Assembly (NCBI RefSeq): GCF_000746025.2
Contig: NZ_CP045798.1
Coordinates: 916,501 to 980,500 of the forward strand
Length of the DNA stretch: 64,000 nucleotides
Origin: Thermanaerosceptrum fracticalcis
Lineage (GTDB): Bacteria > Bacillota > Peptococcia > DRI-13
Direction: 5' to 3'
Under the pieces are notes generated by a model. It saw only the letters and a list, made by a program, of their open reading frames with translations, ran no database searches and was not told the DNA's origin. A program made the translations under genes and the position numbers. Positions 22,758-27,228 of this stretch are shown here, piece by piece. How positions within the stretch are numbered: the stretch's first letter is position 1; the number at the start of each line of letters is the position of its first letter.

Positions 22758-24425
22758 CTAAACTTCCATGATGATAGGGATGATCATAGGGCGACGTCTC
22801 ATTTTCTCGTAGAGATATTTACCTAAAGTATCTCGGATTTGTGACTTCAAGGTGGTCCAGTCGGTTATCCGTTTTTCAAAACACTTGTCCAGTACACCTT
22901 TAACTTTTTCTTTGGCTTCTTCCATTAATTCTTCCGATTCTCTTACATAGACAAAACCCCGGGAGACAATATCAGGACCGGCGACAACCAGATTTTCTTC
23001 CTTATTGATTGTGACAACGACAATCAAAATACCGTCCTGGGAAAGCTGTTTTCTGTCACGTAACACAATGTTGCCAACGTCGCCAACTCCCAGCCCGTCA
23101 ATCAAAACTCTCCCTGCTGTCACTCTGCCGGCAATTGTTCCTTTTTGCTGGGCAAATTCCAGAACCTGGCCGTTTTCAACCACAAAGATGTTTTCTTTGG
23201 GAATACCTACGGCCTGGGCCAAATGGGAATGTTTAACAAGATGACGGTACTCGCCGTGAACAGGAACAAAGAATTTAGGTTTTACAAAGTTTAGCATTAA
23301 TTTTAATTCTTCCTGGCTGGCGTGACCTGAAACATGGATCCCGCTTACTGATTCATAAATAACTTCCGCACCCTGGCGGAAAAGCTGGTTAATTGTTCTG
23401 GCCACCAGTTTTTCATTACCAGGTATGGGAGTGGCCGAGATGATCACGGTGTCACCGGGTACGATTTCCACCCTGCGGTGGTCAGACATAGCTATACGTG
23501 TCAGGGCCGACATGGGCTCCCCTTGGCTTCCCGTGGTGAGGACCACAACTCTATTGCGCGGATAGGAAGAAATATCATCCAGCTCAATTAAGGTATCGTC
23601 GGGAATATCCAGATAACCTGTTTCCTGGGCAATGCTGACCACGTTTACCATGCTTCGTCCGGCGATGGCAATTTTTTTGTTGTACTTGTAAGCTGCATTA
23701 ATGGCTTGTTGGATACGGTGGACATTGGAGGCAAAAGTGGCAACGATAATTCTTTCTTTTGCCTGGCGAAAAGTTTCTTCAAAAGTTTGCCCAACGACAC
23801 GTTCGGACATGGTAAAGCCGGGTCTTTCCACGTTGGTACTGTCGGATAGCATGACTAGAATTCCTTTTTGGCTTAATTCGGCGATACGTGTGAAGTCGGT
23901 GACAGCACCATCGACGGGAGTTTGGTCTAATTTAAAATCACCGGTGTGCAGTACTATACCTTCTGGTGTGTAAAAAGCGGAGCCAATGGCGTCAGGTATA
24001 CTGTGGCTTACCTTAAAAAATTCGGCGGTAAAGTACGCACCTAATTTTACAGATTCCCTGGGACGAATAGGGATAAGTTTTGCATTTGCTACATTGTTTT
24101 CTTTTAATTTGGCCTGTAACAGGCCTAAAGTTAGTTTTGTTCCGTACACAGGAACATTTATCTCTTTTAAGACATAGGGCATGGCTCCGATATGGTCTTC
24201 ATGTCCGTGAGTTAAGATGATTGCTTTTATCATTTCTTTATTTTCTATGAGATAAGTGGTATCGGGAATGACGATATCAATTCCCAGCATTTCATCTTCC
24301 GGAAACATGAGACCGGCGTCCACAACGATGATTTCGTTGTTGTAACGCAGGACCATCATGTTATTACCTATTTCTCCCAAACCACCCAGTGGTATCAAGA
24401 GAAGCTTATTGTCGTTTTCTGGCAT
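22758..24425 (-). CDS. rnjA: ribonuclease J
   Basis: 555 aa metallo-beta-lactamase/beta-CASP nuclease with 5'-3' exo- and endonuclease activity in mRNA decay and rRNA maturation. The metal motif HGHEDH is at residues 73-78. Further motifs are SDSTN, the beta-CASP region, and HVSGHA near residue 365. Length is that of a full RNase J. It starts 27 bp after a strong hairpin that may act as a leader attenuator. The Shine-Dalgarno AAGGAGG is ideal. Confidence 0.95.
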   Translation of the reverse strand: MPENDNKLLLIPLGGLGEIGNNMMVLRYNNEIIVVDAGLMFPEDEMLGIDIVIPDTTYLIENKEMIKAIILTHGHEDHIGAMPYVLKEINVPVYGTKLTLGLLQAKLKENNVANAKLIPIRPRESVKLGAYFTAEFFKVSHSIPDAIGSAFYTPEGIVLHTGDFKLDQTPVDGAVTDFTRIAELSQKGILVMLSDSTNVERPGFTMSERVVGQTFEETFRQAKERIIVATFASNVHRIQQAINAAYKYNKKIAIAGRSMVNVVSIAQETGYLDIPDDTLIELDDISSYPRNRVVVLTTGSQGEPMSALTRIAMSDHRRVEIVPGDTVIISATPIPGNEKLVARTINQLFRQGAEVIYESVSGIHVSGHASQEELKLMLNFVKPKFFVPVHGEYRHLVKHSHLAQAVGIPKENIFVVENGQVLEFAQQKGTIAGRVTAGRVLIDGLGVGDVGNIVLRDRKQLSQDGILIVVVTINKEENLVVAGPDIVSRGFVYVRESEELMEEAKEKVKGVLDKCFEKRITDWTTLKSQIRDTLGKYLYEKMRRRPMIIPIIMEV

Positions 24426-24532
24426 TGCAGACCTCCTTTTTGCTATTGCATAAAAAAAAACCTTCTCCTATCCGTCCCATACAGAAGGTTTTATCATTCA
24501 TAAGATAAACCAAACCGTCCCCTATCTTACAT
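24426..24532 (-). promoter_or_regulatory. candidate attenuator leader of rnjA
   Basis: From a promoter at 24537-24565 a leader of about 105 bases runs to rnjA. It contains a terminator (stem AAAACCTTCT/AGAAGGTTTT, 24457-24492, then a T9 run) only 27 bases before the start codon. Just upstream, GGTTTATC can pair with GATAAAACC (one bulged A). That second arm includes bases of the terminator's first arm, so the two hairpins exclude each other. This is the layout of transcription attenuation; the signal is unknown. Confidence 0.55.
24452..24492 (-). terminator. strong intrinsic terminator upstream of rnjA
   Basis: Ten-bp stem AAAACCTTCT/AGAAGGTTTT with a 16-base loop and a run of nine T on the minus strand. 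It lies inside the predicted rnjA leader, downstream of its promoter. Confidence 0.8.
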
Positions 24533-24536
24533 GTGT

Positions 24537-24565
24537 ATTATAAGATATTTTAGACGCGGGTACAA
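24537..24565 (-). promoter_or_regulatory. promoter of rnjA
   Basis: TTGTAC, 17 bp, TATAAT on the minus strand. It lies between the asd terminator and the rnjA leader hairpin, so it is the likely start of the rnjA transcript. Confidence 0.65.
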
Positions 24566-24635
24566 GAGACACCGTGCAACTATCTTCCTTTCTATTATCA
24601 CCCAAATAATTCCTTCTCATACAAAGAAAACTTGA

Positions 24636-24692
24636 CTTCCAACAAGTGTAACGCTGTTGGAAGCCTTAGTTGCACTTGTGCCTGTGGTGCAA
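24636..24692 (-). other. two further hairpins in the asd-rnjA spacer
   Basis: Beyond the asd terminator lie two more inverted repeats: CTTCCAACA/TGTTGGAAG (24636-24663) and TTGCAC/GTGCAA (24670-24692). Neither is followed by a T run on the minus strand. The 330 bp spacer between asd and rnjA therefore holds the asd terminator, these hairpins, the rnjA promoter and the rnjA leader; no gene is seen. Confidence 0.5.
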
Positions 24693-27010: not shown

Positions 27011-27228
27011 TACCTCCTTCCTCTGCCCGTAGTGAGATAGTGCTCCACCTGGTAACGGGCCCTTACCAGATGACAGTTCTGCATTTCTTCAATGCAACCC
27101 CAGCATAGAGACCTGGATAGTCATCTACACTTCGGCGGATGCCCCTTTCCACCGGTTCATAGTGTCCCCACTCCCCGGCTTACTCTTGACAATCCGCGCC
27201 CCTACCCCACTCTTTTTGAGTGAGGTAT
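27011..27228 (-). ncRNA. lysine riboswitch (L-box) aptamer
   Basis: The minus strand carries recognised L-box blocks in order: GGGGCGCGGATTGTCAAGAGTA, AGTAAGCCGGGGAG, GGTGGAAAGGGGCATCCGCCGAAG, then CTGGGGTTGCAT and GAACTGTCATCTG. P1 can form between ATACCTC near 27222-27228 and GAGGTA near 27011-27016. It senses lysine and would terminate transcription before dapB when lysine is plentiful. The 486 bp gap between ymxH and dapB is filled by the promoter, this RNA, its terminator and the palindrome. Confidence 0.92.

Follow-up and report, generated by a model that had tools for sequence, protein, structure and literature searches.

A GNNCGG Tag and an Intrinsic Terminator in the Conserved Leader of rnjA, a Candidate Site of RNase J Feedback

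Introduction

RNase J is the main 5′–3′ exonuclease of Bacillota. Comparable feedback is known for other ribonucleases: RNase E, RNase III, PNPase, and RNase Y are established examples of enzymes that control their own mRNAs (PMC3997798, PMC10303841). Our literature search, whose scope took in only a minor part of the subscription journals, returned no report on how the RNase J level is set, no autogenous control of RNase J, and no motif like the one described below. A preliminary description of a 64,000-nt stretch of the Thermanaerosceptrum fracticalcis genome, here called the window, had pointed to an attenuator-like leader in front of rnjA, with two competing hairpins and a repeated motif. 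We asked which part of this leader carries a conserved signal, and what could read it.

Results

Promoter, Terminator, and Gene Context

The gene behind the leader encodes RNase J (TIGR00649, 674 bits vs. a cut-off of 400), the only protein of the genome above the family cut-off. Promoter, tag, and terminator all lie on the minus strand, at the positions that had been reported before (Table 1). The promoter had been called near-consensus, which holds for the −10 box but not for the −35 element, with only half of its letters matching, and a consensus promoter scan did not list the site. At equal spacing, relatives carry TTGCCA, TTGTCA, or TTGTTA as the −35 element. As the upstream asd gene has its own terminator, rnj relies mainly on the leader promoter; the stretch between the T9 tract and the ATG is too short for a further one. 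Counted from the putative start site, the leader is ~105 nt long. Upstream of the dap/asd gene cluster, we also found a lysine riboswitch (27030–27212, minus strand; RF00168, 89 bits).

Table 1. Features of the rnjA leader and its surroundings, in the direction of transcription (positions of the window).
Feature	Position	Strand	Remark
Terminator after asd	24634–24665	−	Separates rnj from the upstream operon
−35 element TTGTAC	24565–24560	−	3/6 consensus matches, 17-nt spacer; read from sequence
−10 element TATAAT	24542–24537	−	Perfect; read from sequence
Putative transcription start	~24530	−	Placed at −10 + 7 nt
Inverted repeat TAAGATA/TATCTTA	24529–24523, 24507–24501	−	7 bp, 15 nt between; around the first GGGGACGG/tag 1
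GNNCGG tag 1 (GGACGG)	24515–24520	−	~+11 to +16 of the mRNA (about +12)
Competing hairpin GGTTTATC/GATAAAACC of the preliminary description	24511–24504 with 24495–24487	−	Overlaps the first arm of the terminator
Intrinsic terminator stem-loop	24457–24492	−	10 bp, 16-nt loop
Terminator arms AAAACCTTCT/AGAAGGTTTT	24492–24483 with 24466–24457	−	
GNNCGG tag 2 (GGACGG)	24472–24477	−	In the terminator loop; read from sequence
Terminator T9 tract	24460–24452	−	Read from sequence
Shine-Dalgarno AAGGAGGT	24431–24438	−	Read from sequence
rnj (RNase J, 555 aa)	22758–24425	−	ATG at 24425

The 10-bp terminator with nine T that had been noted before rnjA is indeed present, with 27 bases from 24452 to the ATG. 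It folds with −10.6 kcal/mol (z = −2.05), and the terminators of 15 leaders fold better than shuffled sequences (z from −1.4 to −4.1). As expected of an attenuator, an intrinsic terminator thus lies between promoter and start codon and is kept in relatives. Covariation was not detected in its stem, because the sequence is nearly invariant and the two sides never change together. Upon readthrough, the Shine-Dalgarno sequence could pair with ACCTTCT of the first terminator arm.

Conservation within the Order

Upstream regions of rnj were collected from 25 genomes of the same order and read in the direction of the gene. All readable regions of families f1–f6 and f8 show TATAAT, a CGG-containing stretch, and then ACCTTCTGNNCGG...GAAGGTTTTTTT, and this anatomy is kept despite protein divergence to ~75% identity. 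The distance from the −10 box to the T-run of the terminator is 71–82 nt in relatives. Members of family f7 (L017, L019–L021) carry different terminators and the upstream tag only. A covariance search of relatives' leaders had been suggested as a check. Our model, built from 14 rnjA leaders, gave a single strong match (E ≤ 2e-8) in each of 15 genomes, always before rnjA, including a match at E = 2e-8 in G007, which was outside the training set; as 150 of roughly 400–1900 candidates per genome were scored in the first scan, weak extra copies may be missed. Fifteen genomes share promoter, tag, and terminator, so these features go beyond chance, and the comparison supports reading the stretch before rnjA as a conserved leader that has a dedicated promoter and, between this and the gene, an intrinsic terminator.

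A Sequence Tag Rather than Alternative Helices

The preliminary description had proposed that an upstream hairpin competes with the terminator. This hairpin can form and does overlap the first terminator arm; however, only this species and its sister species have a strong GGTTTATC/GATAAAACC helix, and other genera have 3–5 bp of GGU(U)/(A)ACC at most. In 15 leaders, the 5′ region shows no advantage in folding over shuffled sequences (z from −1.5 to +1.6), and a mutually exclusive conserved antiterminator was not found in the leaders of relatives, which counts against the proposed switch. With a helix limited to the genus and no excess of structure in the 5′ region of relatives, competing hairpins are ruled out as a conserved principle; of the two structures, it is the terminator that is conserved. 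A 7-bp inverted repeat around tag 1, absent from the preliminary description, is likewise not conserved as a structure.

By contrast with the helices, the tag sequence itself is kept. The heptamer GGGACGG occurs twice, as had been reported, at 24521–24515 and, within the terminator loop, at 24478–24472. Across the leaders of the order, the invariant letters are the G and the CGG of the tags plus the terminator strand, and the loop contains CGG in all ten of the ten dereplicated leaders of the order with a conserved terminator called. The homologous site, 24482–24477, has GTATGG in this species and GTACGG in its sister. That the repetition of GGGACGG is meaningful is supported by these comparisons, and judged by what is conserved, the signal of the leader is the GNNCGG sequence tag and not two alternative helices.

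Gene Specificity of the Tag

Among the candidates scored, strong matches of the covariance model always lay before rnjA; the element is confined to a ribonuclease gene, as in autogenous leaders. In 25 whole genomes of the order, the arrangement TATAAT-N12–17-GNNCGG was not enriched over the reversed pattern, which rules out a general promoter feature, and the tag is absent from rny and pnp of this genome, which rules out a regulon shared with either. Not being enriched genome-wide and being absent from rny and pnp, the tag therefore fits a regulator tied to RNase J. Further intergenic matches in this genome comprise lexA (GTACGG touching the Shine-Dalgarno sequence), a hairpin arm ahead of a PrpR-like gene, and two unassigned sites.

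Several known identities were tried and rejected. None of the Rfam 15 families exceeded its gathering cut-off at the leader, the PyrR model reaching 24 bits vs. a gathering score of 54. A CsrA site (A(N)GGA core) is ruled out by the base after CGG, which is T, A, C, or G in 23, 36, 26, and 14 of 99 cases, and a leader peptide by the ATG frame, which is not kept in any relative. The 5′ end of 16S rRNA is an RNase J target; mimicry of it is ruled out, since the mature start (L335–L337), TTGGAGAG here and in part of the order but ACGGAGAG in other genomes of it, gives no consistent match.

The insertion of a REP-like repeat was considered as well. This genome (G000; e.g., L035–L047) contains a repeat family, TGCGACA-GGGGACGGTTCTC-TGTCGCA, whose members are small palindromes with arms that vary and which looks like a REP or miniature element. 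Positions 24522–24515 of the window resemble its core, an inverted repeat flanks the core in the leader too, and GGGGACGGTT occurs in 44 copies vs. 15 of the reversed pattern in this genome. Even so, it is scarcely credible that the leader sequence GGGGACGG is an inserted copy of this core, as the homologous site of relatives reads GGTCGGTTCGGTT, GGGACGGATCGG, or TCAGAGCGGT at the same place and the repeat core is not kept in orthologous leaders.

The Tag across Bacillota

Of 131 dereplicated rnjA leaders, 94 have GNNCGG 14–22 nt downstream of TATAAT, compared with 22 of 902 other TATAAT sites at the same loci (Fisher's p about 1e-80, a value uncorrected for phylogeny and shared ancestry). These counts rest on TATAAT −10 boxes, weaker boxes being left out. 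The offset of CGG peaks at 18–19 nt after the −10 box, and a G stands three bases before CGG in 91 of 99 cases. The tag follows TATAAT at a near-fixed distance in rnj leaders of Syntrophomonas, Thermincola, Carboxydocella, Selenomonas, and many others, and 20 additional upstream regions, read by eye and kept out of the counts, gave the same picture. Even sampling of the phylum gave the tag in 33 of 53 families, whereas the other five C/G trinucleotides reached 2–11 families. About 20 of the 53 sampled families lack the tag at the expected place, which counts against RNase J as its reader. The evidence from paralogues is mixed and also counts against an autogenous reading: in two genomes with two RNase J genes each, the tag stands on one gene only, and the second copies of other genomes are without it.

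A terminator lies between promoter and gene in 26 of 96 tag-bearing leaders vs. 1.8% of shuffles; these terminators come from several lineages and have unrelated stem sequences. Other lineages seem to use the Shine-Dalgarno sequence. In Thermincola- and Carboxydocella-like leaders (L208, L213, L219, L228), we noticed by eye a sequence CTTCTCCTGG complementary to the Shine-Dalgarno sequence CAGGAGGTG, a pairing that could form a possible translational switch. Three leaders related to Thermosediminibacter (L073, L248, L068; no called promoter) have one to three CGGA repeats immediately ahead of the Shine-Dalgarno sequence of rnj, which suggests a translational version of the same control.

Discussion

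What could read the tag? The suggestion that RNase J may control its own transcript stands as the most economical explanation, given an element specific to rnjA, and it leads the alternatives because nothing but RNase J is shared by all cases; we infer three points, namely RNase J as the binder, an effect of binding in favor of termination, and negative feedback. In the mechanism that we propose, and to which we give about even chances, the stretch is a dedicated rnj control leader on which RNase J binds the tags of its own nascent mRNA and promotes termination. Transcription from ~24530 would expose the first tag at about +12, and ~35 nt past it the terminator would present the second in its loop. 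RNase J would meet tag 1 on its emergence from RNA polymerase and then tag 2, and bridging or loading of the enzyme at both would favor termination. With free RNase J plentiful, the terminator would be held or stabilized and transcription would end before the gene; with RNase J busy with other RNA, the transcript would escape and more enzyme would be made. The leader would thus probably let cells sense, and hold down, the amount of their main RNA-degrading enzyme. Where a lineage has no terminator, the +12 tag may act on the mRNA 5′ end, via decay or translation. The proposed direction, toward termination, agrees with the way in which ribonuclease feedback is known to work (PMC3997798, PMC10303841).

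The wider claim, that RNase J across Bacillota recognizes GNNCGG ~12 nt from its own mRNA 5′ end and that some lineages couple it to a terminator with the tag in the loop, is offered tentatively, with doubt slightly outweighing belief. If true, it would amount to a feedback device of wide occurrence, and an enzyme regarded as mostly indifferent to sequence would turn out to recognize one. Two points count against the autogenous reading: specific binding of RNase J to a sequence such as GNNCGG is not known, and a conserved antiterminator that could release the terminator was not found.

Another trans-acting factor, an RNA-binding protein or a small RNA, might instead read GNNCGG and report the state of RNA decay or growth. 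What is seen is a single-stranded tag, whose sequence does not identify its reader, and the copy in the loop would suit any RNA-binding protein; the two or three CGGA repeats beside the Shine-Dalgarno sequence in L073 and L248 (no called promoter) resemble the site of a translational repressor. A separate factor serving one gene in most sampled families would, however, be less economical than the gene product itself, and the remaining tag-bearing genes of this genome form no clear regulon. We regard such a factor as unlikely and rank RNase J above it as the binder.

The very constant distance of the tag from the −10 box would also agree with a role in DNA or on RNA polymerase, i.e., a promoter-proximal pause or a transcription-factor operator ~12 nt into the transcript. 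This is improbable, as the tag recurs in the terminator loop ~35–45 nt downstream, is not palindromic, and does not form an enriched arrangement at other TATAAT sites. More improbable still is a fixed attenuator, in which the terminator is unregulated and either lowers the expression of rnj by an unchanging proportion or serves as the end of a short leader RNA. A strong terminator and the lack of a conserved alternative structure would be in keeping with it, but such a terminator would need no invariant loop motif and no +12 tag retained in terminator-less lineages.

Control of the kind proposed here, with RNase J as the reader, has parallels among protein-dependent attenuators. In TRAP-trp, PyrR-pyr, and L20-rpmI-rplT, a protein reads the leader RNA as it is made and thereby determines whether transcription stops at the terminator or continues into the genes; for PyrR and L20, this includes autogenous control. 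The L20 system is mentioned in PMC4419217. The rnjA leader differs from all three in its motif, GNNCGG, and in having no conserved antiterminator.

Among ribonucleases, the rne 5′ UTR of E. coli is alike in that a major decay ribonuclease has a cis element in its own 5′ UTR, with negative feedback proposed to act through direct binding, as far as outlined in PMC3997798 (citing Schuck 2009). According to the same outline, RNase E binds a stem-loop and speeds the decay of rne mRNA, whereas the rnjA leader offers a short tag at ~+12, plus a terminator in this order. RNase Y of Bacillus subtilis is likewise a Bacillota RNase that limits its own synthesis; there, control works by cleavage within the 5′ UTR and the first part of the coding region of rny, and a conserved tag or attenuator is not described (PMC10303841). 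With RNase J as its putative binder, the rnjA leader would join a known kind, the autogenous ribonuclease leader.
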